Source: Planctomycetota bacterium
Lineage (GTDB): Bacteria; Planctomycetota; Phycisphaerae; Phycisphaerales; SM1A02
NCBI GenBank assembly: GCA_021414025.1
Contig: JAIOPG010000004.1
Span: forward strand, 62,001-126,000
DNA length: 64,000 nucleotides
Direction: 5' to 3'
Shown here: positions 18,068 through 57,843 of the stretch, piece by piece
How the letters are laid out: the number at the start of each line of letters is the position of its first letter
Numbering within the stretch: position 1 is the first letter of the stretch
Program-made: the position numbers and the translations under genes
The notes under the pieces: generated by a model
Told to the model about the DNA's origin: nothing
Database searches by the model: none
Seen by the model: only the letters and a program-made list of their open reading frames with translations

Positions 18068-18121
18068 CTTTGAGGCTAAAAACCAGGGCAATTTCTTTTT
18101 ATTAAAAATCAAGAACTTCAT

Positions 18122-18149
18122 TTGACAGGCCTTGTTTCGGTGTTATTAG
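18122..18149 (+). promoter_or_regulatory. Putative sigma70-type promoter of leader copy 1
   Basis: TTGACA at 18122-18127, exactly 16 bases, then TATTAG at 18144-18149. The spacer ends in CGGTGT, as does that of copy 2 (CCGTGT), and the same 16-base spacing occurs in five other promoters of this window. Confidence 0.6.
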
Positions 18150-18410
18150 TGTTTCGCGGGTCGAATCCGACCGATCCGGCTGTTCCCAATTGTCGGACGA
18201 GTGAGCTGGTTTAAAGGGTATTGAAAAATTATTCGGGTTTGGAGTGCAAGGTTTGTGACATTTCATTCGTCACAGACGCGACTTGTTCTTTCAATCTCAG
18301 CGGGTGCGCGTGTGGCTTTCGCCTTCTTAAAGGGAGAGGGCGTTTGATATCGCTGTGCTATCTGCTGGACTGAAAGACGGGCCGACAAACAGAACTCCAG
18401 CACGCCGCTG

Positions 18411-18445
18411 CCGGAGATCTCAGTGAAAGGGACTGAGATCTCCGG
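18411..18445 (+). repeat. 14-bp palindrome hairpin, copy 1
   Basis: CCGGAGATCTCAGT and its perfect complement around the 7-base loop GAAAGGG. It recurs at 19349-19381, 20928-20963 and (minus strand) 48895-48929. No U-run follows, so it is not an intrinsic terminator. Confidence 0.85.
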
Positions 18446-18643
18446 CGATTGCGGTGCTTGCTGACGAAGTTTTGCTTGGCGCCGTCGACTGCCTTCCAAA
18501 TTCATCTCGCTTACTCGCGGATCATTCCCTGATCCGCGCATTGTGCTCGGCAGACTTTTCCCTGCCTCAGTCCCCGCGGATCGTTCCCCGATTCGCATTG
18601 TTCCCCCCGCAGATTTCCCAATCTGCAATTCCTGGAGTTCCCC

Positions 18644-19333
18644 ATGCGCGCCACTGCATCCATCGTCTCAACACTCGCCGCCGTTTCCATCGCCGGCATC
18701 GCCAACGCGAACCTGCTGGTCAATCCCGGCTTCGAGGTCAACTCGACCACTTCCTATGTCAATGTGCTGACCAACTTCACCGGCTTCCAGGGCATCTGGG
18801 GCCCCGAGGTCGGAACCATCACCGGCCCCAACGGCGGAGTCATTCCGGCCGGCGGCGTGCAGATGATGAAGCTGGACGACGACGGCCTGAGCTACACGCA
18901 GTGCTTCCAGACCACCGATGTCTCCTCCTACTCGGCGTCGATCAACGCGGGTATCGCCCAAGCCACGCTGCAGGCCTTGTTCACCACAGGACAGACCCTC
19001 AACGGCTCCATCGCCGCGGTCAGTCTGCAGTTCTTCGGCGGCGCCAGCTACGGCACGCAGATCGGCACGGGCATCAGCTTCGCCATGCCGCTCGACGGCT
19101 CGGCCGCCACATGGCAGAACGTCCTGGTCACCGGCATGATTCCCGTGGGAACCACCTGGATCCTCTCGCAGGTCATGTACAACAACGCCTCGCTGCTGGC
19201 CAGCGACGGAGTGGTCTACTCGGGCTATGTGGATGACGCCGACCTGGACATTCGCCTCGTGCCGGCTCCCGGCGCGTTCGGCCTGGTGACCCTGGCCGGG
19301 GCCTTCGCCGCCCGCCGTCGCCGCGTCAACTGA
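18644..19333 (+). CDS. Secreted protein with PxPG-CTERM sorting signal (1)
   Basis: A 229-residue protein: signal peptide (residues 1-22, ending ANANL), then a beta-rich domain starting LLVNPGFEV, a start often seen in carbohydrate-binding-like, surface-anchored proteins. The last 24 residues form a sorting signal: VPAPG, a hydrophobic run (AFGLVTLAGAFAA) and RRRR. This mirrors PEP-CTERM signals, where an exosortase cleaves near the PEP-like motif. No exosortase is in the window. It is a close paralogue of the next gene. GGAGT precedes the ATG by 6 bases. Expression is probably governed by the long leader before it. Function unknown. Confidence 0.85.
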   Translation: MRATASIVSTLAAVSIAGIANANLLVNPGFEVNSTTSYVNVLTNFTGFQGIWGPEVGTITGPNGGVIPAGGVQMMKLDDDGLSYTQCFQTTDVSSYSASINAGIAQATLQALFTTGQTLNGSIAAVSLQFFGGASYGTQIGTGISFAMPLDGSAATWQNVLVTGMIPVGTTWILSQVMYNNASLLASDGVVYSGYVDDADLDIRLVPAPGAFGLVTLAGAFAARRRRVN

Positions 19334-45606: not shown

Positions 45607-46485
45607 TCACGCGCCATTGCCGGGGAAGTTCCATTCCGACCCGGGCTCGTAGTCCAAAAGTGAATAGAGATCTTTCCGAGTCTGCATTTGGGGAAGCACT
45701 TCCCTCACGGACCCATGCTTTTTCAGCGAAGAAAGACCCCGTGTCACCTCCCCCATGGCCAGGCGCATCATGCTGAGCGGATAGATCACCAACGCGTAAC
45801 CGAGCTCTCCGAACCTGGCCGCAGAGATGTCTGGCGTCTTGCCGAACTCGGTCATGTTGGCGAGCAGGGGGCCAGGCGACTCCTTGGCGAAGTCCCGGAA
45901 TTCGGCCTCGCTTTGCAGCCCTTCTGGAAAGATCACATCGGCCCCGGCTTCCCGATATTGATTGGCGCGTTGAACGGCGTCGGCAAAATTGGTGACGTGC
46001 CGCGCGTCGGTCCGCGCGATGATCACAAACTCGGGAGTGATCCGGTGCTTCGCCATGGCGCTGACCTTGTCGACCATCGCCTTGGCACTGATGACTTCCT
46101 TGCCGTCCAGGTGTCCGCACCGCTTTGGAAAAACCTGATCCTCGATGTGCAGCGCAGCGGCGCCGGCTCGCTCGTATTCCACGACGGTCCGCACACAGCT
46201 TTCCACCTCGCCATAGCCCGTGTCGGCGTCTGCGATCACCGGCAACCGGCCGGCATCAGCGATTTCCCGGATGGTTCGGGCCATTTCAGTCAGCGTGATC
46301 AGGCCGACGTCGGGGTATCCCGAGACATTTGCCGTGGCGCCGCCCGAGATGTAGACCGCCTCAAAACCAGCCTTTTGAACGGCCTTGGCCACCAGCGCGT
46401 TAAAGGCGCCGGGAACCATCACCGTTCCGCGCGACATCAGGCCGCGAAGTGTGCGCCCAGGATGCTCGGACGTGCTCTGTTGCAT
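45607..46485 (-). CDS. prpB: 2-Methylisocitrate lyase-like protein (PrpB/ICL-PEPM superfamily)
   Basis: A 292-residue enzyme. ADADTGYG (about 86; metal-binding Asp), HIEDQVFPKRCGHLDGK (about 113, with the KRCGH active-site loop of PrpB) and IIARTDAR (about 155) are the superfamily motifs. PrpB splits 2-methylisocitrate into pyruvate and succinate; related enzymes act on other 2-hydroxyacids, so the name is likely but not proven. Starts at 46524 or 46629 are possible; 46485 fits the family length. A citrate/methylcitrate synthase gene is 0.7 kb away on the other strand. Confidence 0.78.
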   Translation of the reverse strand: MQQSTSEHPGRTLRGLMSRGTVMVPGAFNALVAKAVQKAGFEAVYISGGATANVSGYPDVGLITLTEMARTIREIADAGRLPVIADADTGYGEVESCVRTVVEYERAGAAALHIEDQVFPKRCGHLDGKEVISAKAMVDKVSAMAKHRITPEFVIIARTDARHVTNFADAVQRANQYREAGADVIFPEGLQSEAEFRDFAKESPGPLLANMTEFGKTPDISAARFGELGYALVIYPLSMMRLAMGEVTRGLSSLKKHGSVREVLPQMQTRKDLYSLLDYEPGSEWNFPGNGA

Positions 46486-46543
46486 GGGTGATATCGAATC
46501 GGCTTTCCTGCGGGGTGGCGTCATGGTGCTCTCGTCGGAAGGA

Positions 46544-47188
46544 TCAGGGCTGCCTCTTGAATTGGTCGGGCCCTTTTGTCGGTCCCCAGATTTGCTTGCC
46601 GGCATCGTCAAATCCGCGCTCCCACACATCGAATTCTTCCGCGGACAGGCTCACCTCGCAGGTCGCATAAGTAGCGCCGCCCTTGGAGCACGCACAGTTT
46701 TGACCGGTCGTTGAGCCGCGCCATTGGTTCCCCGACGAGGCTTTCAGCCGAATCCCGCAACCCGATCGCGGGACGAGCTGGGAGGGAAGGAATCGGTCAA
46801 GCGGATTCTGGTGTTTCCAAGCGCCGGTATACACATCCGGGTCGCTGGGAAACTCGTAGAGGCGAATTTCGACATCTCCATTGTCCCGGTCCACGAGCTG
46901 GTACACGCTCTGCTGAAGCGGTTGGCCCGGGGATTTCGAAGGAGCTTTCTCGACGTACAGCCATCGGCCGTCGGTCCGGTCCTTCCAAATGGGCTGCATA
47001 TGGAGCGTCATGGGCGGATCATTTGCGTCCGACATGGCTTGCATGGAGCTTGAAAATGTACCCCCCATCCAGCGCCACACCTGATCCACCCTCTCGCTTG
47101 GCGGAGGGGGCAGGGGAGGCTTGTATTGGCCGACGGTGCCGCACCCGGCAAGCAGTAAATTGGCGGTCCATTTGGCGCTTAGTTTCAT
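46544..47188 (-). CDS. CpcT/CpeT-family lipoprotein
   Basis: A 214-residue protein with lipoprotein signal (LLLAGC, Cys near 16) and a domain like CpcT/CpeT. WMGGTFSSSMQAMSD (about 40) matches the W-x-x-G-x-F-S-N start; LYVEKAPSKSPGQPLQQSVYQLV (about 77) the strand pair; the DRGFD-like WERGFDDAGKQIWGP (about 190) the end. In cyanobacteria such proteins attach bilins to phycobiliproteins; elsewhere the family has unknown ligands. There are no phycobiliproteins here, so a lipid or tetrapyrrole-binding role outside the cytoplasm is conceivable. Divergent from the citrate synthase gene (49 bases apart). Confidence 0.7.
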   Translation of the reverse strand: MKLSAKWTANLLLAGCGTVGQYKPPLPPPPSERVDQVWRWMGGTFSSSMQAMSDANDPPMTLHMQPIWKDRTDGRWLYVEKAPSKSPGQPLQQSVYQLVDRDNGDVEIRLYEFPSDPDVYTGAWKHQNPLDRFLPSQLVPRSGCGIRLKASSGNQWRGSTTGQNCACSKGGATYATCEVSLSAEEFDVWERGFDDAGKQIWGPTKGPDQFKRQP

Positions 47189-47237
47189 GGGCGGATGCTA
47201 GCATCGCACACTTTCAGACCCGACCACCGGAGTAGTC

Positions 47238-48392
47238 ATGAGCACCTCAACCGCTTCCAAGCAACCCGACACCCGCGGACTCGCGGGGCAGACCGTTGGC
47301 GACACTTCCGTCTGTGCCGTCACGCAAACCGAACTTCTCTACCGCGGCTACGAGATTGCCGATCTCGCCGCCCACGCGACCTTCGAGGAAGTTGCGTATC
47401 TCCTGCTGGTGGGCCACAAGCCCACGGACGCCGAACTGAAGAAATTCAAGAGCGACATCGTCGCCCAGCGAAAAATCCCCGTGCCGGTGCGGGATGCGGT
47501 GGCGCAGTTCGCCGTGAGCCATCCCCAGGCGCATCCCATGAACGTGCTGCGCACGGGTGTGAGCCTGCTCTCCCATACGGATCCCGATTGTGAGGACAAT
47601 TCCCCGGCGGCCGAACTGCGGAAAAGCATGAGGCTTCTGGCCCAGATTCCGATGCTCATCGGGATCTGCCAGCGATCGCGTGAAAAGAAGCCCATCCTCG
47701 AGCCGGATGCCTCCCTGGGCCATGCAGCCAACCTGCTCTGGATGATCAATGGGCGAAAGCCAAGCGAGCTCGAGGCCCGCATCATGGATGTGAGCCTGAT
47801 GCTCTACGCCGAACACGATTTCAACGCCAGCACGTTCGCCTGCCGGGTCATCGCCAGCACTGAATCGGACCTCCACAGCGCGGTCTGCGGCGGCATCGGA
47901 GCGCTCAAGGGCCCGCTGCACGGGGGAGCCAACGAGATGGCCATGGAGATGCTCAAGGAGATCGACCGGGACTGCTCCGGGGGCAGCATCACCGTTGAAG
48001 CATGGATGCAGAGGGCCTTCGTCGAGAAGCGCAAGCTCATGGGCTTTGGACATCGCGTGTACAAAAATGGAGATCACCGAGCGGGCATTCTTCGATCCTG
48101 GGGTCTCAAGCTGGCCGAGCAGATCGGCCCCGGCGCCAAGAAATGGTTTGACATCGGGGATCGGGTCCAGGCGATCATGCTCAAGGACAAGGCGATCCAT
48201 CCCAATGTCGATTTCCCCTGCGGGATGACCTATTTCATTCTCGGAATTCCGGTGCCGCAATACACGCCCATCTTCGTGGCCAGCCGCATCACCGGCTGGG
48301 CCGCCCACATCATGGAGCAGCATGCCAACAATCGGATCATCCGCCCGCTCGCCGATTATCAGGGGCCGCCTCCACGCAAGTGGAAGGCATAG
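47238..48392 (+). CDS. Citrate/2-methylcitrate synthase
   Basis: A 384-residue citrate synthase of the short bacterial type. Catalytic residues are visible: His in GALKGPLHGGANEMA (about 222), His in GFGHRVYKNGDHRA (about 273) and Asp in IHPNVDFPCGMTYFILG (about 319). The start region RGLAGQTVGDTSVC matches the 2-methylcitrate synthase (PrpC) group, so the enzyme may accept acetyl-CoA and propionyl-CoA. Only synthase in the window, near a PrpB-like gene. No terminator of its own is seen; the next hairpin belongs to the opposite strand. Confidence 0.88.
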   Translation: MSTSTASKQPDTRGLAGQTVGDTSVCAVTQTELLYRGYEIADLAAHATFEEVAYLLLVGHKPTDAELKKFKSDIVAQRKIPVPVRDAVAQFAVSHPQAHPMNVLRTGVSLLSHTDPDCEDNSPAAELRKSMRLLAQIPMLIGICQRSREKKPILEPDASLGHAANLLWMINGRKPSELEARIMDVSLMLYAEHDFNASTFACRVIASTESDLHSAVCGGIGALKGPLHGGANEMAMEMLKEIDRDCSGGSITVEAWMQRAFVEKRKLMGFGHRVYKNGDHRAGILRSWGLKLAEQIGPGAKKWFDIGDRVQAIMLKDKAIHPNVDFPCGMTYFILGIPVPQYTPIFVASRITGWAAHIMEQHANNRIIRPLADYQGPPPRKWKA

Positions 48393-48481
48393 GGAGAGCA
48401 CCCGCGGGGGAGACCTAGCGATTCAATGTGCCGGACCCTGCCGCGTTGTTCCATGTCAACTTGAAAAGCTTCGCGAGGAAC

Positions 48482-48520
48482 AAAAAAAGGGGACGAGCCT
48501 TTTTTCAAAGACCCGTCCCC
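48482..48520 (-). terminator. Intrinsic terminator on the minus strand
   Basis: GGGGACG/CGTCCCC stem extended by two further pairs, followed on the minus strand by seven T. No protein gene on that strand ends here, so it marks the end of the orphan leader RNA. Confidence 0.7.
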
Positions 48521-48894
48521 TGTGCTGTTGCGGACCGTGCCCTCCGCGGCCCGCATGGTTCGAGACCCGATGCTGCGTTCCCTTTGCAAGCATCGAGCCG
48601 GGGAGTCCTTTTGGGACCGCCCCCTTCGAACATCTGATTCTTGATTTCCCGTGAAACCAAGCCTTTTCCTTACACAACTCTTCGGCCCTTTTTCCGAAGA
48701 GCGATCAGATTCAGTGATGCGACGTGATCGACATGCGATCAAGCCACGATGTTTGTCAAGAGCGACTTTGTGAGCCGCAAGTCCTGCCATGCACAATGCG
48801 CAGATCGGGGAAGGATCCGCGAGTAAACGAGATGAGTCAGGAGTGCAGATGACCGACGTCTGAAACAGCTCTCCGTCAGCAGGCACCGCAATCG

Positions 48895-48929
48895 CCGGAG
48901 ATCCCAGTCCCTTTCACTGGAATCTCCGG
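48895..48929 (-). repeat. 14-bp palindrome hairpin, copy 4
   Basis: Minus strand CCGGAGATTCCAGT, GAAAGGG, ACTGGGATCTCCGG. Relative to copy 1, pair 10 changed from T-A to C-G on both arms and pair 9 became T-G; the loop is identical. Confidence 0.85.
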
Positions 48930-49193
48930 CAGCGGCGTGCTGGAGTTCTGTTTCGTCGCCAAGTCCTTCAGTCCAGCGGACAGCACAGCGATACCAATCA
49001 CCCGCTCCCTTTAAGCAGGCGAAAGCCGCACGCACTCCACGCTGAGAATGAAGGAACAAGTCGCGTCTGTGGCAAATGAAAAGCCACAAATCTTGCACTC
49101 CAAACCCGATGATTTTTTCAATACCCTTTTAGCCAACTCACTCGTCCGACAACTTGGAACATCCGGATCGGTCGGATTTCGACCCGTGGAGCA

Positions 49194-49221
49194 GTACTAA
49201 CACGGAAACCGGGCGAGTCAA
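49194..49221 (-). promoter_or_regulatory. Promoter of the orphan leader RNA
   Basis: Minus strand: TTGACT (49221-49216), 16 bases ending CCGTGT, TAGTAC (49199-49194). Confidence 0.6.
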
Positions 49222-49283
49222 ATGAAGCCGGGAAAGAAATCAAAATAAAAAATTGAGCTTTCCGGGGAGTCAAATTCTTGGGG

Positions 49284-49320
49284 AAAAAACAAGCGAGGGG
49301 CGGCATGAGCCGCCCCTCGC
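49284..49320 (-). terminator. Terminator of PxPG-CTERM gene 6
   Basis: Perfect 12-bp stem GCGAGGGGCGGC/GCCGCCCCTCGC with a 4-base loop, followed on the minus strand by TTGTTTTTT, 24 bases after the stop. Confidence 0.85.
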
Positions 49321-49343
49321 GGGATTTGCATCAGTGGAGTGAA

Positions 49344-50018
49344 TCAGGCGTGACGGCGACGATTGCCGATCAGGCCAGCAAGTCCAACCAGTGCCATGGC
49401 GCCAGGAGCCGGGATGTTTCCGGAATTCTCGACGATGTAGTCCTGATGGTAGATGCTGGAAACGCCCTGAATGTTGGCGTTGCCCAAACCGTTGATCGAG
49501 GCAAAGAGTGCCGATGAAATCGCACCGACGGTTCCGTTGTATCCGGACGCCTGGACAAGTCCAGTGCTCAGATCCAAGCCAAAGCCGAAGTCAGTGACGA
49601 CTTCCCAAACCGCGAGCTGGAATGCTGTTGCATAATCAGCAGTGAGGTATTGGTTTCCTGCAGCAAAGACATACATGTCGTTGATGGCCTGTGCCGCGGC
49701 AGCACCCATCGGAGCGCTGGTCGGCATCGTGGAAACTGGCACCACGTTGTACTGGTTCACGCCACCGTTGGCGTACTGGTACAGATCGCAGCAGAAGACG
49801 GCGTAGGCGCCGTTCTGGAAGGCAACTGTGTTGCTGCTGTTGGTCGCATTGATAAGAATCACGCCGGCAAAGACTCCGCCGTTGAATCCAGGCGAAACAA
49901 TGTTCACGCCTTGACCGGGGCCAGTGCCGGTGAACTGCACGTCAACCGTGGTCGCCGAAGCGGCGGCGCAAATTGCAGCAGTTGCAAAAACAGAAACAGC
50001 AGTGGTCATTGATTTCAT
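49344..50018 (-). CDS. Secreted protein with PxPG-CTERM sorting signal (6)
   Basis: A 224-residue protein: signal peptide (1-23, ending ASA), a domain with VQFTGTGPGQGVNIVSPGFNGGVFAG (about 26-51), one CC pair near 75, a middle part rich in Ala/Asn with two short helices, and the C-terminal IPAPG, hydrophobic run, RRRHA. Coding GC is lower than in the metabolic genes around it. Start 50018 aligns the signal peptide; 50009 is possible. Own promoter (50119-50092) and terminator: a single-gene unit. The middle part resembles surface proteins that form ester or thioester bonds, but I cannot confirm that. Confidence 0.8.
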   Translation of the reverse strand: MKSMTTAVSVFATAAICAAASATTVDVQFTGTGPGQGVNIVSPGFNGGVFAGVILINATNSSNTVAFQNGAYAVFCCDLYQYANGGVNQYNVVPVSTMPTSAPMGAAAAQAINDMYVFAAGNQYLTADYATAFQLAVWEVVTDFGFGLDLSTGLVQASGYNGTVGAISSALFASINGLGNANIQGVSSIYHQDYIVENSGNIPAPGAMALVGLAGLIGNRRRHA

Positions 50019-50200
50019 TTTTTTCTCTATGTAAAGGGAAGTAAGGGAAAGAAAGGGAACAATGGCCGATGGGAAATCGACCGTGCGGTCAGTATTAACA
50101 CCTTTATCTGGCAAGTCAAAGGAATTCATTCGAATTCGCTCAAAAATGACTAGCAATTGCAGAAAGAATTATTGACCAGCAGCAAAAAAAACTCAACAAT

Positions 50201-50223
50201 TTGCCAAAAAAAAGGCATATTAT
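50201..50223. repeat. AT-rich inverted repeat upstream of gene 6
   Basis: TTGCC, eight A, GGCATATTAT. A related block, TTGCC...GGCATATTAT, lies at 52700-52730 upstream of PxPG-CTERM gene 8. Confidence 0.5.
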
Positions 50224-50281
50224 GAACCACTTTTAAAGCGTTCCAGGGTCTTGCCAATCGGGGCAATGTCGTCGTAAGGAA

Positions 50282-50322
50282 ATAAAAATAAAAGACGCTC
50301 CTCTTTTGAGTGGAGCGTCTTT
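50282..50322 (-). terminator. Terminator of PxPG-CTERM gene 7
   Basis: Eleven-bp stem AAAGACGCTCC/GGAGCGTCTTT with 10-base loop, followed on the minus strand by TTATTTTTATT; 24 bases after the stop. Confidence 0.85.
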
Positions 50323-50346
50323 GTCTTCAATCCAATCGAAGGTCGA

Positions 50347-51237
50347 TTACTTGCGCCGCCGCATCATGAGACCTGCAAGTCCAAGCAGTGCAACAACGCC
50401 GGGAGTCGGAACTGGCGGTGCATAGAAGGACCAAGCAGCTTGGCCGCCAACCACACCATCAAAGGAAGGGTCGAAGGTCCAAGTTTTGCCGCTAATAGTG
50501 TACTTAGTCTGGGCATCGCTTTTCACATTGGCGCTGGCCATGGTGTACAAGGTTGTTCCGCCGGTTTGAGCGGTCGACTTTCCGGTCCAATTGAACCACA
50601 CCGCCATCGTGGCCGTGCCGCCATTGGCGAGAATGTCACTGGTTTTCAGGCTATAGCGCCCGATCATGATCATGTGGTCGGCATTGGCTGAAGCGTTGGT
50701 TTCAAACCCAGCATCGCTCGGCGAATTTTGGGTGACTCCGGCGCCGACAAAGAGAGGAGTCGCGTTGAAGCCACCAATGATCGAGCCGACATTCGAATTC
50801 GGATTGGTGAAGTAGGAATCTGCGGCCACGTTGCCGGTGTTGCCCGCGCCTTGCGTGCGGGCGCCGACCGTCATGAAGGAGTCCCAGGTGTTGTTGCCGG
50901 TGCCGCCGTTGGCGCCGGAGCCGGGGAGCCAGCTAACGTTGCTGTGCTGGAAGTTCAAGCCGAGGCTGTTGGTGAACTTAGATGTCTTGTTGACCCCAAA
51001 CGTCGAGGCATCGGTAGTGGCTTGGCCGTACAGATTCACCATGCGCTCACCCTGGGTGCCGGTTCCGGAAGCGGAATTGAATTTGAGGAAGACGTCCATG
51101 ACCGAGTATTGAACACCCGCGTCCGTGACGAGATAGTTGTGGGCATAGAGGCCTTGAGCTCCCGAGACTGACGCGCTGGCAACGCCGGCGAATGAGATGG
51201 TGAGCAGTGTCGAGACGATTTGATATGAGTTTTTCAT
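50347..51237 (-). CDS. Secreted protein with PxPG-CTERM sorting signal (7)
   Basis: A 296-residue protein with signal peptide (1-22, ending ASAS), a beta-rich domain including NYLVTDAGVQYSVMDVFLKF (about 34-53) and NNTWDSFMTVGARTQG (about 117), and the C-terminal VPTPG, hydrophobic run, RRRK. It is a paralogue of gene 8 (51686-52465), which has NYLVVDGGNRYSVMDVY and NAWDSFVSMGARSQS at the same places. Only one Cys-free, Ser/Thr/Asn-rich body; extracellular role likely. Its start codon overlaps the stop of an upstream open frame as ATGA. Confidence 0.82.
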   Translation of the reverse strand: MKNSYQIVSTLLTISFAGVASASVSGAQGLYAHNYLVTDAGVQYSVMDVFLKFNSASGTGTQGERMVNLYGQATTDASTFGVNKTSKFTNSLGLNFQHSNVSWLPGSGANGGTGNNTWDSFMTVGARTQGAGNTGNVAADSYFTNPNSNVGSIIGGFNATPLFVGAGVTQNSPSDAGFETNASANADHMIMIGRYSLKTSDILANGGTATMAVWFNWTGKSTAQTGGTTLYTMASANVKSDAQTKYTISGKTWTFDPSFDGVVGGQAAWSFYAPPVPTPGVVALLGLAGLMMRRRK

Positions 51238-51464
51238 AAATCCTTGATTCCCTTACAGTTCTGTTTGAAATACGACAAACGCTTTTCCAACAACCGCCGA
51301 ACATGATTTGGATAGGCACAAGCCTGGACCACGATTTCTAGTTTTTCAGGATCCCGCAGAAATTTCGCTGTCGGCCAAGGCCAGAAAGGATTGCCCTTGC
51401 CTTGCGAAATGACTTGAGTGTCCCACTCCTTTTCACCAACCTCAACTACGCCCTTGGATCCTGA
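51234..51464 (-). other. Open frame of 76 codons without a start, ending at ATGA of gene 7
   Basis: The minus-strand frame is open from 51464 to the TGA at 51236-51234, which overlaps the ATG of gene 7. It reads like protein (Trp, charged and hydrophobic residues alternate, e.g. GNPFWPWPTAKFLRDPEKLE and CAYPNHVRRLLEKRL), but has no ATG; the only in-frame GTG comes at codon 45. It may be the remains of an older gene, or a leader peptide coupled to gene 7, or chance. The same stretch lies in the leader after the promoter at 51526-51499. Not recognised. Confidence 0.35.
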
Positions 51465-51685
51465 TCATTTTCAAGATCAACATTCCTAAGGCAGGGACAA
51501 ACTAGGTCGATTTTGAATCATGTCAAAAATAAGTAGTGAAAAATTTTGATTTTGTGGAACCGAGATATCCAATATCGAAATTTCGAAAAATATCAACGAT
51601 GTTATTTGCCAACCCAAAGTAAAAATAAAAGACCCCGATGATTAAATCATCGGGGTCCTTGGTTTCCAAAGGGATTGTTAGTAAA
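51238..51685 (-). promoter_or_regulatory. Upstream region of gene 7 and end of gene 8
   Basis: Minus-strand promoter TTGACA (51526-51521), 16 bases, TAGTTT (51504-51499), giving a ~260-base leader that begins with a small hairpin (TTGATC/GATCA, near 51463-51482). AAGGA lies 4 bases before the ATG of gene 7. Unlike the other leaders, no UUCCC hairpin is evident. Between 51527 and 51619 I see only AT-rich DNA. Confidence 0.5.
51620..51657 (-). terminator. Terminator of PxPG-CTERM gene 8
   Basis: Twelve-bp stem GACCCCGATGAT/ATCATCGGGGTC with loop TAA, followed on the minus strand by TTTTATTTTTAC; 28 bases after the stop. Confidence 0.85.
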
Positions 51686-52465
51686 TCAGGCCTGACGACG
51701 ACGGCCGACAAGACCAGCCAGTCCGACCAGGGCCAGAGCGCCTGGGGCCGGAACAACGAAGGTGTTGTAAACCAAGTTCGTGTTAAACGCAGGCTGAGAA
51801 GTCGTTCCGCCACCAGCGATGGTGCCGTTGACCTTCAGAGTGAGCTTGCCCTTGATCTGCATCGACAGGGTGTCCGCGTTGGTGTACCCGGTCACATTGA
51901 CCGTGAAACGACCGAGCAGAAGACGCTTGTCGGCATACGAACCAGCCAAATCGGCTGGATCATTCGGCAAGTTGGTCTGCCAACCCGCTCCGACGTAAGC
52001 CGGAGTCGCGTTGTAACCACCTTGAATGGTTGAAGCGCCAGCAGTGCCCGCGTTGGCGAAGTACACGTCGCCACCAATTGCTTGGTTGGTGATCGCGGCG
52101 GACTGACTACGTGCACCCATGCTCACGAACGAATCCCATGCATTTGCATTGGCTGCGTTCGAAGGCATCCAGCCGCTTCCGTCGGAGTGCACCCAGGCGG
52201 CTCCGTTGGTTGCAGTGGCGGCATCGCCGGCGTTCTGAACGCCATTGCGAGTCGTGCGGCAGAAGGCATTGGTGCCGGTCTGACCGAACAGGTTGACGCA
52301 CTTGTCGAACGCGCCGGTGAAATCGGCATAGACGTCCATGACTGAGTAGCGATTGCCGCCATCAACGACCAGGTAGTTTGTACCCGTAATGCCGAGGAAG
52401 GCCGCGTTGGCACTTGCGGCAGTCGCAAGCACTCCAAAACCAATTACGCTCTTTGGGAAACCCAT
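51686..52465 (-). CDS. Secreted protein with PxPG-CTERM sorting signal (8)
   Basis: A 259-residue paralogue of gene 7: signal peptide (1-21, ending ANAAF), NYLVVDGGNRYSVMDVYADF (about 30-49), WDSFVSMGARSQS (about 110), GGYNATPAYVGAGWQ (about 147), C-terminal VPAPG, hydrophobic run, RRRQA. Two Cys near 57 and 69 could form a disulfide that gene 7 lacks. Own terminator and probable own promoter. Function unknown; sorting to the cell surface or matrix is inferred from the C-terminus. Confidence 0.82.
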   Translation of the reverse strand: MGFPKSVIGFGVLATAASANAAFLGITGTNYLVVDGGNRYSVMDVYADFTGAFDKCVNLFGQTGTNAFCRTTRNGVQNAGDAATATNGAAWVHSDGSGWMPSNAANANAWDSFVSMGARSQSAAITNQAIGGDVYFANAGTAGASTIQGGYNATPAYVGAGWQTNLPNDPADLAGSYADKRLLLGRFTVNVTGYTNADTLSMQIKGKLTLKVNGTIAGGGTTSQPAFNTNLVYNTFVVPAPGALALVGLAGLVGRRRQA

Positions 52466-52875
52466 TGTTCATACTCCAGATGTCCGGTAGGGAAAGGGAA
52501 GAAAGGGAACACAGTGAAGTGAAGGGAACATGGTCTACCGGGATGAGACCATGAACACAGCATGACTCGAAAAAGCATGCGCTCAAGTAATAAAACAGTT
52601 TTTTTGTCATTTTCTTCATTTATTTTGGATCAATCGAGGACTCAATTTGACTGAAATCAGCGATTTCGAGGTTGAAATGAATTTATAGCGTCAAAAAAAT
52701 TGCCTTTTTTGACATAAAAACGGCATATTATTGCTTAAATTTATAGGACTATGAAATGGTTTCACCAGGGAACAATTTGCATCGATTGAATCAAATTGAA
52801 TCCGAAGCAATCTTTTCGAGTTTGCGGTTCAATCACAGGCTCTATATCAACGCCTGATTCAACAAGGAGTCCAAC
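52466..52875. promoter_or_regulatory. Divergent upstream region of gene 8 and the dehydrogenase gene
   Basis: For gene 8 (minus): a weak promoter of the same geometry, TTGAGC (52586-52581), 16 bases, CATGCT (52564-52559); then hairpin ATGGTCT/AGACCAT at 52530-52552 with TCCC in the loop, two GTTCCC motifs and TTCCCTTTCCC before GGAG and the ATG. An AT-rich repeat TTGCC...GGCATATTAT lies at 52700-52730. For the plus-strand dehydrogenase: AAGGAG at 52863 before the GTG, and a possible -10 TATATC near 52842. The middle is AT-rich without a gene. Confidence 0.5.
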
Positions 52876-53742
52876 GTGAGCGCTCAAATTCAAAAATGTG
52901 CTGTGATTGGTGCTGGAACAATGGGTGCGGGCATCGCTTTTGTCGCGGCAATGAGCGGGATCGACACGTTTCAGATGGATGTGAAGTCTGAACAGCTCGA
53001 TCGTGCCCGCGCCTATCACAAGAAGACTGCCGATCGCAGCGTCGAGAAGAAGCGAATGTCCCAGACGGAAGCGGATGCGGCTCTTGCGAGGATTCATTAC
53101 GTCGCTTCCATGGATCAAGCGAAAGGCGCGGAGTGGGTCATCGAGGCGGCCACCGAAAATGTCGAATTGAAGAAGAAGATCTTTCGCGAGATGCAATCGC
53201 ACTTCCCGGCGCCCGCGATCTTGTCCACCAACACCAGCAGCATTTCAATCACCGAGATCGCCGCCGCGGTCGGAGCGGATGCACCGCGGGTGATCGGCAT
53301 GCACTTCTTCAACCCGGTCCCTGTGATGGCGCTGGTCGAAGTGATCAAGGGATCGGCCACCAGTCCGGAGACCACTCAACGAACGATTGATCTTGCAAAA
53401 AGACTTGGAAAAACACCGGTCCCAGCCCATGACCGGGCGGGATTCGTCTCGAACCGGGTGCTGATGCCGATGATCAATGAGGCCTTTTATGCCTGGATGG
53501 ATGGGGTGGCACAGCCTGAGGACATCGATCAAATCATGAAATTGGGCTGCAATTTCCCCATGGGCCCGCTGCGCCTTGCGGATTTCATCGGGCTGGATGT
53601 CTGCCACGACATCATGATGGTGATGCACCGCGAGCTCGGGAATCCGAAGTACTTTCCTTGTCCGCTGCTGAGGCAACTGGTGACTGCGGGGCGGCTGGGG
53701 GACAAGAGCGGCCGGGGAGTCTTCGAGTATCCGCAGAAATAG
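52876..53742 (+). CDS. 3-Hydroxybutyryl-CoA dehydrogenase-like (3-hydroxyacyl-CoA dehydrogenase)
   Basis: A 288-residue short-type 3-hydroxyacyl-CoA dehydrogenase. VIGAGTMGAGIAFVAAMSG (about 10-28) binds NAD; ILSTNTSSISITEIA (about 115); GMHFFNPVPVMALVEVI (about 139, with the catalytic His) and the C-terminal RLGDKSGRGVFEY. It oxidises or reduces 3-hydroxyacyl-CoA in fatty acid breakdown or butyrate/PHB-type metabolism. GTG start at 52876 with AAGGAG 7 bases upstream. Single gene in its unit as far as seen. Confidence 0.9.
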   Translation: MSAQIQKCAVIGAGTMGAGIAFVAAMSGIDTFQMDVKSEQLDRARAYHKKTADRSVEKKRMSQTEADAALARIHYVASMDQAKGAEWVIEAATENVELKKKIFREMQSHFPAPAILSTNTSSISITEIAAAVGADAPRVIGMHFFNPVPVMALVEVIKGSATSPETTQRTIDLAKRLGKTPVPAHDRAGFVSNRVLMPMINEAFYAWMDGVAQPEDIDQIMKLGCNFPMGPLRLADFIGLDVCHDIMMVMHRELGNPKYFPCPLLRQLVTAGRLGDKSGRGVFEYPQK

Positions 53743-53829
53743 TTTCGAAGGCGCACATGCAGGCCTTCGAGGCGTCTGCGGCGGCGCACGTCGCAGTCAT
53801 GTCGGCATCGGGTGCCGTACCATCGCCGC

Positions 53830-55122
53830 ATGAATTCAATCAGGCCCGCCAAGCTTGTGGCGGTGATCGGTGGATTGGGATTCGCGAGTGGGTTGCCCAA
53901 TGTGATGGTCACGGACACGCTCAGCGCCTGGCTGGCGGATCTTAAGATCGACATCAAGACCATCGGACTCTTCGCGCTGGTGACACTGCCCTACGCCTTC
54001 AAGTTTGTGTGGTCGCCGCTCTTGGATCGCTTCGCCGTGCCCGGCTTCGGATGGCTTGGTGCGCGAAGAAGCTGGCTGATTGTCCTTCAAGCATTGCTGC
54101 TGGTCGCCCTGCTGGCCTTGGCATGGTGCGGGCCCGAGCACTCCGGATCTCCGCTCATGGCGTTCGCCCTCATCGCCCTGGCCACATCAATGCTGAGTGC
54201 CACGCTGGATATCGCCGTGGATGCCCATCGATCGGACGTCTCCCAGGATGAAAAGGGCCCGGCCGCCAGCGCCTATGTGGCGGGATACCGGATGGCGTTT
54301 GTTCTGGCCGGTTCGCTGGCGCTGGTGGCGGTCGCGAAAGTGGCTCCCTGGCTTGAATCCTCATCTGAGGAAGCGGCAAGGGCCACGGCATGGCGAATTG
54401 TCTATGCGGGCTCGGCCGGCCTCCTTTTCATTGGGTTGATCTCTGCGCTGCTTGCCCCGGAGCCGACGGAACGCCAACCGCCCCAATCCCTTCGCGAGGC
54501 CATCGTGGCTCCACTGCTTGCGTTTCACAATCGATTTCACGGAAGGCTGGTGCTGGTCCTGGTCTTTATCTTTCTGTTCCGGTTGCCCGATTTGCTTGGC
54601 AATCGGATGACCATGCCCTTCCTGAGGAACGAGATTGGCTTCACACTGGAGGAGATCGGTTTCCTGAGGCAGGCGCTGGGATTTGCCATGACGATGGCCG
54701 GAGCCGTCATCGGCGGGATCGCCGTGAAGCGGTTCGGGATCTCTCGAACGCTTCTGGTGTTCGGCCTGCTGCAATGTCTGAGCAACGCGGGCTACATCGT
54801 GCTGGCCCAGGCCGGGAGGTCGGTGCCGACCTTCGCGTGCGTCATCGTGATCGAGAATCTGTGCAACGGCATGGTGTCGGCGGCGTTCGTGGCGTACTTC
54901 ATGTCGCTCTGCGATCGGACTTCCAGCGCCGCCCAATACGCCTTGCTGTCGGGTGTGATGTATCTGGCGGGTGCCACCATCGGCGGCGCGTCGGGCTGGC
55001 TGGTGGAGTTGATGGGCTACCAGGGCTTCTTCCTCTTCAGCATCTTGATCGGGATTCCCGCGATCGCCCTGATCGGCATCGCCACCCGTCCCGCTAGAAT
55101 CAATCCTTCATTCGCAAATTGA
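53830..55122 (+). CDS. ampG: AmpG-like MFS transporter (muropeptide permease family)
   Basis: A 430-residue membrane protein with 12 predicted helices. GFASGLPNVMVTDTLSAWLAD (about 14; the SGLP...L..WL element of AmpG), ALVTLPYAFKFVWSPLLDR (about 46) and DIAVDAHRSDV (about 125) are typical. AmpG imports anhydromuropeptides from cell-wall turnover, which would suit the MltA enzyme at 40.6 kb. Some members of this clan carry other substrates (acetyl-CoA-like). ATG 53830 is chosen over the GTG at 53812. Ends 12 bases before aconitase. Confidence 0.75.
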   Translation: MNSIRPAKLVAVIGGLGFASGLPNVMVTDTLSAWLADLKIDIKTIGLFALVTLPYAFKFVWSPLLDRFAVPGFGWLGARRSWLIVLQALLLVALLALAWCGPEHSGSPLMAFALIALATSMLSATLDIAVDAHRSDVSQDEKGPAASAYVAGYRMAFVLAGSLALVAVAKVAPWLESSSEEAARATAWRIVYAGSAGLLFIGLISALLAPEPTERQPPQSLREAIVAPLLAFHNRFHGRLVLVLVFIFLFRLPDLLGNRMTMPFLRNEIGFTLEEIGFLRQALGFAMTMAGAVIGGIAVKRFGISRTLLVFGLLQCLSNAGYIVLAQAGRSVPTFACVIVIENLCNGMVSAAFVAYFMSLCDRTSSAAQYALLSGVMYLAGATIGGASGWLVELMGYQGFFLFSILIGIPAIALIGIATRPARINPSFAN

Positions 55123-55134
55123 GGAATTTGAAAC

Positions 55135-57843
<2,709 letters not shown>

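Follow-up and report, generated by a model that had tools for sequence, protein, structure and literature searches.

The locus studied here lies in a 64,000-nucleotide window (the whole stretch of DNA that was analysed), where a promoter and a terminator share a strand and enclose no protein gene. The question it raises is what the transcript of such a unit would be. The preliminary description regarded it as an orphan copy of a leader that precedes CTERM genes, either left behind by a deleted gene or working in trans. Our comparison of the sequence across the genus makes it likely that positions 48482-49187 are a real, selected, free-standing RNA gene. The evidence for this consists of its own promoter and terminator, a strand-specific structure under selection, two lineages without the gene, and synteny throughout the genus. 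The whole explanation that we prefer, a free-standing non-coding RNA of ~700 nt that comes from the untranslated regions (UTRs) of a CTERM mRNA and would act in trans on CTERM proteins via AGGG loops, is tentative and falls a little short of an even chance.

The promoter-to-terminator unit

The unit is convergent to a citrate-synthase-type gene, which serves as its syntenic anchor, and belongs to a region (45607-57843) in which a CTERM cluster sits amid methylisocitrate lyase-like, methylcitrate/citrate synthase, 3-hydroxyacyl-CoA dehydrogenase-like and aconitase genes. The label "CTERM-type" rests here solely on a P-x-P-G ... RRR C-terminus; no curated PEP-CTERM model passes its cut-off on the four neighbouring proteins, the best being PF07589 (16.5 bits, cut-off 20.7) and TIGR03901 (14.9, cut-off 20). 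The features of the locus and its surroundings are collected in Table 1.

The promoter boxes lie exactly where the preliminary description had placed them, and transcription is predicted to start near 49187 on the minus strand. A general promoter scan omits this promoter because its −10 box matches the consensus at just three of six bases. Similar boxes, consisting of a −35 TTGAC(A/T) or TTGCAT, a 16-nt spacer and TAnnnn, are present at all 12 leader copies inspected (13 are known), the TTGCAT boxes of the G002 group having been chosen by eye. The intrinsic terminator reported at 48482-48520 on the same strand was likewise recovered, as a 15-pair stem with a T run. Taken alone this call is weak, because the scan for terminators returns 9 sites of this kind where shuffled sequence yields 5.3; the hairpin itself recurs in all 13 aligned sequences, from the genome that holds the window (G000) and 12 relatives.

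That no protein gene lies between promoter and terminator also proved correct. The open frames in 48482-49187 show no apparent conservation as judged by eye, and a tblastn search with nine CTERM proteins at E values up to 1 returned no gene remnant between leader and terminator. Two candidate small proteins were rejected: a 29-aa frame that is open in G002, G008, G012 and G006 and shifted in G000, and a 78-aa frame that is open in G002, G008 and G012. For both, the ribosome site is unconvincing by eye and the alignment gaps are not multiples of three. None of 4227 Rfam families reached its gathering threshold at the element in the window or in 12 related loci, the best score at E ≤ 5 being 22.1 bits against a gathering score of 56.

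The preliminary description took the whole ~700 nt for a leader copy, which holds for ~400 nt of it. The leader match ends near 48779, and 48482-48735 is a second, different conserved element, the 3' domain. The orphan leader matches leader copy 1, before gene 18644, at 84% over 449 nt; within 18164-18469 of the window the match comprises two blocks, one of 139 nt (88%) and one of 83 nt (94%). In a 7-sequence alignment of the leader 97.8% of the cells pair, with 5 double-change pairs against 2.6 in shuffles, a value reached by 8 of 500 shuffles. Leaders that lack the middle domain (G002 group) seem to retain its closing stem, and contig 481 of G003 seems to have a different stem in its place, both read by eye. 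Near the 5' end, P1 (GGUCG:CGACC) and the long P2 (CCGAC:GUUGG), at 49145-49184, share one strand and are mutually exclusive, a possible switch of the 5' domain.

Folding energy is uninformative on the strand of the leader, because its z score is −7.6 on the RNA strand and −7.5 on the reverse strand (60 column shuffles). The 3' domain folds at z −13.2 on the RNA strand against −6.8 on the other (60 shuffles; 8 of 10 rows, G006 and G010 being too short) and, without the terminator and with all 10 rows, at −9.2 against −4.1. Cells with G.U exceed those with A.C in both domains (57 against 5 in the leader, 80 against 6 in the 3' domain), and the minus strand is therefore the RNA strand.

Table 1. 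Features of the RNA locus and of related elements in the window
Feature	Position	Strand	Remarks
Leader copy 1	18116-18557	+	own promoter TTGACA 18122-18127, TATTAG 18144-18149; precedes gene 18644
CTERM-type gene after leader copy 1	18644-19333	+	VPAPGAFG..ARRRR C-terminus; no family over cut-off
2-methylcitrate/citrate synthase-type gene	47238-48392	+	TIGR01800 431.3 bits, cut-off 421.3
Whole free-standing RNA (predicted)	48482-49187	-	about 706 nt; promoter-to-terminator span
3' domain (seg3)	48482-48735	-	separate conserved structured element
Intrinsic terminator	48482-48521	-	15-pair stem 48521-48488 and T run
3'-domain hairpin	48555-48529	-	GAGGG loop; then linker ACAGCAC and terminator
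3'-domain multi-branch unit	48631-48558	-	
AAAGGG in apical loop	48580-48585	-	loop AAAGGGAAC
3'-domain hairpin	48702-48677	-	
AAAGGG in apical loop	48686-48691	-	loop AAAAAGGG
5' (leader) domain	48779-49187	-	homologous to copies preceding CTERM genes
Leader closing stem P4	49107-49094 with 48847-48834	-	
Leader long hairpin P7	48954-48862	-	
AAAGGG in P7 apical loop	48909-48914	-	GAAAGGG identical in 7/7 aligned leaders
AAAGGG in hairpin loop	49007-49012	-	loop found solely in G000 copies
AAAGGG in conserved linker	49124-49129	-	linker AAAGGGTATT
Leader helix P2	49167-49145	-	
Leader helix P1	49184-49170	-	
Promoter	49194-49221	-	−35 TTGACT 49221-49216, 16-nt spacer, −10 TAGTAC 49199-49194
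CTERM-type gene upstream of orphan RNA	49344-50018	-	own terminator 49320-49293; PF07589 16.5 bits, cut-off 20.7
Tandem UUCCCUU tract	50034-50059	-	5' UTR of CTERM gene 49344-50018
Tandem UUCCCUU tract	52494-52528	-	5' UTR of CTERM gene 51686-52465

Relatives with and without the gene

Gene orders were compared along the RNA strand (ARRANGEMENTS). The preliminary description had looked to the synteny of close relatives for a CTERM gene in this spot, and the answer is divided: the gene is present in G005, G015 and G014, probably also in G003 and G010, and absent from G002, G008, G012 and G006. The order in G005 and G015 is CTERM gene, leader, CTERM gene, 3' domain and synthase. In these two and in G014 the 3' domain directly follows the CTERM stop codon, which is not so in G000 or the G002 group. 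For G014, G003 and G010 the state is read from two contigs or from a contig end. In G014 the leader and the first part of the gene lie on a different contig from the last part and the 3' domain. In G003 one contig carries the leader with the beginning of the gene, and a second has the 3' domain at its end. In G010 the end of the gene and the 3' domain are present and the leader was not found. G002, G008 and G012 begin with a separately terminated CTERM gene, followed by promoter, a leader of reduced length, 3' domain and synthase, and G006 has the same arrangement on a contig that begins at the end of the upstream CTERM gene. None of these four has a gene between leader and 3' domain. As cut, their free-standing RNAs measure ~477 (G002), 477 (G008), 476 (G012) and 316 nt (G006), the RNA of G000 being the long version. 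In the outgroups (G007, G009 and G001) the 3' domain comes directly after a CTERM gene, and in G007 a weak leader match (13.8 bits, E 0.057) stands before that gene. Elsewhere in G007 (L071 290-1330), ~1 kb between two CTERM genes is strongly folded, with a terminator-like hairpin near 1160-1195, and is possibly another free RNA.

Trees of two housekeeping genes placed G000 as sister to the nine other ingroup genomes (100%) and united G002, G008, G012 and G006 with 96-97% support on DNA and 54% on protein. The gene-free and gene-bearing states require two changes, forced by well-supported branches (three genomes unscored). A single origin, with the gene-free genomes held together, was rejected (AU p 4.8e-6); one clade of the five gene-bearing ingroup genomes was not (p 0.28). 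The gene may have been lost twice, or lost once and restored through duplication of a neighbouring CTERM gene; both histories fit equally, and gene conversion may blur the picture because neighbouring CTERM paralogues are 82-84% alike. In the reading that we prefer, both domains would be the UTRs of a CTERM mRNA in the relatives that keep the gene and would stand alone in G000 and the second lineage, so that the RNA would be built from a 5' leader and a structured 3' UTR with the coding part absent.

The alternative that survives best, which we nevertheless find fairly unlikely, is that both domains act purely in cis, as a 5' leader and a 3' UTR concerned with stability or translation, and that the gene-free transcript is a by-product of chance or recent loss. 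It is consistent with the CTERM gene found before the 3' domain in G005, G015, G014, G007, G009 and G001 (probably also G003 and G010), and with the leader copies 1, C2 and partial C6 of G000, all of which precede CTERM-type genes. Against it, the gene-free state arose or was kept in two lineages, the orphan leader is not clearly faster than gene-bearing copies, and the gene-free lineages conserve the RNA: the 3' domain differs by 0.026 between G002 and G008, against 0.119 at 4-fold sites. Across the 15 genome pairs listed, divergence in the 3' domain is 2 to 11 times lower than at the 4-fold sites of two genes, at 0.020-0.132 against 0.08-0.43 in ingroup pairs and 0.19-0.22 against 0.55-0.63 in pairs with G000 (for example, 0.020 against 0.213 for G005/G015 and 0.188 against 0.630 for G000/G005). 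The smallest constraint is that of the gene-free pair G002/G006 (0.105 against 0.225). The leader changes about 2- to 3-fold less than 4-fold sites, with 0.063 against 0.213 for G005/G015, 0.130 against 0.245 for G003/G014, 0.110 against 0.349 for G005/G014 and 0.260 against 0.630 for G000/G005.

It is distinctly unlikely that the 3' domain is simply a transcription insulator between convergent genes, which stops read-through into the synthase, with everything else incidental. Its position would suit this role, since it is convergent to the synthase wherever it is found beside that gene, and so would the terminator in 13/13 sequences. By blastn the domain occurs once per genome, at the 3' end of the synthase gene, in 12 of the 16 genomes of the genus. 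A covariance model built on the final 70 nt of the domain brings in G001, giving 13 of 16; among the three genomes with no match, the synthase is cut by a contig end in G004 and G013, and in G011 no close copy of the synthase gene was found. Across 82 synthase loci, 80 of them from a named collection that for this genus covers largely the same genomes and is not an independent sample, the 3'-domain model gave 11 strong matches, all in genus loci and all directly behind the synthase; the next were at chance level (E 0.67 and worse). The model gave 11 matches in 151 genomes of the family, ten in the genus and a weak one in another genus (G111, L125 1501-1555, E 0.042). The synthase genes of G007 (L027) and G009 (L025) each carry one in-frame TGA in the assemblies.

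Insulation would have no need of a promoter and leader, and the compensatory changes lie upstream of the terminator. Ten sequences of the 3' domain were aligned; of the 670 cells 98.1% are paired, and the 11 double-change pairs compare with 4.3 over 500 shuffles and no more than 4 for slid versions of the structure. Helices 2, 4, 5 and 6 hold 9 of these 11 pairs and the terminator helix holds none. Synteny, rates, covariation and the second gene-free lineage point, as the preliminary description had proposed, to a free-standing RNA under selection.

The orphan leader among its copies

The leader model found 13 copies in 9 of the 16 genus genomes: four in G000, two in G003 and one in each of seven others, which include the gene-free G002, G008, G012 and G006. 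By blastn, 9 of 61 genomes have matches, all within the genus. Apart from the orphan and copy 1, G000 has one more full-length copy, on contig C2, and a partial one of 111 nt (C6); each of the two precedes a CTERM-type gene of its own.

These copies bear on the earlier proposal that the free RNA titrates a factor binding the leaders of CTERM genes, which we consider very unlikely. In G000 it could apply, since besides the free RNA three CTERM-type genes have the leader in front of them, one of them in partial form. It fails as a general role because the four gene-free relatives have the leader once, at this locus, and no other leader was found in them with the model (E ≤ 0.05), blastn or a box search; their assemblies are 95% (G006) and 77-83% (G002, G008, G012) complete. 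GGA loops exceed expectation in two of ten folded sequences, the 3' domains of G005 (3 against 0.71) and G001 (4 against 0.74; P 0.01 each), which would favour a titrated factor, whereas none of the five free-standing RNAs shows an excess of GGA itself (20 against 17.0 in G000; 8, 6, 8 and 6 against 9.0, 8.6, 8.6 and 7.8 in G002, G008, G012 and G006). Within free-standing RNAs, GGA loops number 1 against 1.07 (G000), 0 against 0.61 (G002) and 1 against 0.62 (G006). All 16 genus genomes have csrA; on the same GGA counts, a CsrA sponge is mostly unsupported.

Least probable of all, and highly so, is a functionless relic of a deleted CTERM gene: relatives do carry a gene between the two domains, but the gene-free state occurs in a second lineage, promoter boxes are present, and the orphan keeps 78 of 79 leader pairs (copy 1, 76 of 78; C2, 76 of 79) with 15 unique changes against 13 and 15 against 12 in the two gene-preceding copies, so that it has changed about as much as they have, pairs equally well and shows no decay. 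The preliminary description had itself held preserved pairing against a pure relic, and rightly so.

AGGG loops and UUCCCUU tracts on CTERM mRNAs

As a free-standing, terminated and highly structured non-coding RNA of ~700 nt, the product of this locus would act in trans on the production of CTERM surface proteins. A partner, either a protein or the UUCCCUU tracts of CTERM mRNAs, would find a binding site in the AGGG apical loops of this RNA and would also act on CTERM mRNAs. Trans action on the CTERM system through AGGG loops is possible, and we stop short of calling it probable. Transcription, action in trans, CTERM mRNAs as the target and the AGGG loops as the contact are what we infer from the arrangement of the locus.

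The RNA of G000 has 4 AGGG apical loops against 0.10 in 40 shuffles, the 3' domain of G005 has 3 against 0.06, and each of the eight other folded sequences has 1 against 0.00-0.10 (P up to 0.10), figures that are purely descriptive because the motif was picked after seeing the loops. The longer AAAGGG is enriched in G000 only (5 against 0.39), the four other free-standing RNAs having 1 against 0.24-0.41. In the 3'-domain alignment, G000 is the one row of ten that does not form a UUAAGGG-type loop. In G009 (L025 1010-1140), a CTERM 3' UTR has four successive hairpins with different stems and the same apical CCUGAGGGGG cap.

On the mRNA side, 33 of 41 distinct tandem UUCCCUU sites in the genus, which are partly orthologous between genomes and therefore not independent, precede CTERM-type genes just upstream of the start codon (window 50034-50059 and 52494-52528; L219, L220, L221, L228, L229; L231-L257). 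A genome-wide search of G000 for TTCCCTT-N(0-25)-TTCCCTT gave 13 matches at 9 distinct sites, 7 of them 15-59 nt before CTERM-type genes. Thirteen other genus genomes have matches, at 32 distinct sites, and 26 of these precede CTERM-type genes; one of the remaining six stands before a CTERM orthologue that is truncated where its contig ends. G001 and G013 have no tandem site. A reversed-pattern control is void because TTCCCTT reads the same backwards. In 702,570 bases around 69 synthase loci from other records, a small sample not matched to the genus, there were zero tandem sites, and 16 frames picked there by regular expression (several of them false) contain 2 TTCCC in total.

Single motifs gave a similar picture in G000. 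The density of TTCCC per 100 nt of 5' UTR is 1.67 for 9 CTERM-type genes and 0.10 for 58 other frames, which were mechanically picked and include false genes. When genes 18644 and 19528, missed at the first pick, are added to the nine, the 11 CTERM UTRs hold 27 TTCCC, where shuffling these UTRs gives 7.7 (maximum 15), and 9 CCCTTT, where it gives 1.9 (maximum 6); CCCTT, at 12 against 4.9 with a maximum of 14, is not beyond the shuffles. Two of the 11 UTRs have no TTCCC and seven no CCCTT. We regard the tandem tracts as the candidate mark of a post-transcriptional CTERM regulon of their own.

Whether loops and tracts would pair directly is a further matter. AAAGGGAA is the exact complement of UUCCCUUU, and loops of that kind are present in G000. 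Computed loop-UTR duplexes, in which G000 UTRs were used throughout and the 55 comparison frames were again mechanically picked with false genes among them, separated CTERM from other UTRs with an AUC of 0.66 for loops of G000 and 0.67 for G006; the AUC of 0.30-0.44 for G002, G008 and G012 indicates no CTERM preference. Loops of 40 shuffled RNAs gave a mean of 0.37 and a maximum of 0.78, and the duplexes favour direct pairing only weakly. Outgroup loops carry UGAGG(G), which predicts CCCUCA tracts; a search for such covariation in 16 genomes counted 52 tandem CCCTCA sites, compared with 64 when the pattern is reversed, and hairpins of the RNA itself, read on the opposite strand, account for at least four of the 52, of which G009 has three and G007 one. 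That AGGG/AAAGGG loops pair with UUCCCUU tracts, one RNA tuning a genus-wide CTERM regulon, is quite unlikely.

Small RNAs derived from bacterial 3' UTRs and protein sponges of the CsrB/RsmZ type are known classes. The former resemble this element in that a conserved structured RNA, here the CTERM 3' UTR of gene-bearing relatives, ends at the mRNA terminator; unlike them, it is also found with a promoter and leader and no coding sequence, in two lineages. CsrB/RsmZ sponges share with it the many hairpins with a common apical-loop motif, and the genome has csrA, but the common motif here is AGGG and not GGA; the Rfam family PrrB_RsmZ scored 18.9 bits against a gathering score of 44, on the terminator of a neighbouring gene. 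Copies 1 and C2 are structured leaders before genes, like cis leaders and riboswitch-like 5' UTRs, from which the orphan differs in having no downstream gene and no Rfam family at gathering score. An earlier paper on PEP-CTERM (PMC1569441, 2006) describes a sigma-54-type DNA site upstream of PEP-CTERM genes, with PrsK/PrsR, found only in Proteobacteria, and expects further PEP-CTERM regulators and motifs, within and outside Proteobacteria, still to be discovered. That site is likewise a common element upstream of many CTERM genes, but it is a DNA motif, whereas the tracts here lie beside the start codon and in Planctomycetota. Among the papers listed on PEP-CTERM, exosortase and planctomycete structured RNAs, with few subscription journals among them, no title or abstract opening mentions such an RNA or UTR motif.

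This locus shows a UTR-only RNA state in two lineages and the gene-bearing form in close relatives. To our knowledge, few bacterial cases exist in which the untranslated ends of an mRNA outlived the protein as an RNA gene. The locus also exposes an unexplained signature, the tandem UUCCCUU, on the surface-protein mRNAs of the group. If the pairing of loops and tracts were true, a stand-alone UTR leftover would be a multivalent trans regulator of many surface proteins at once.
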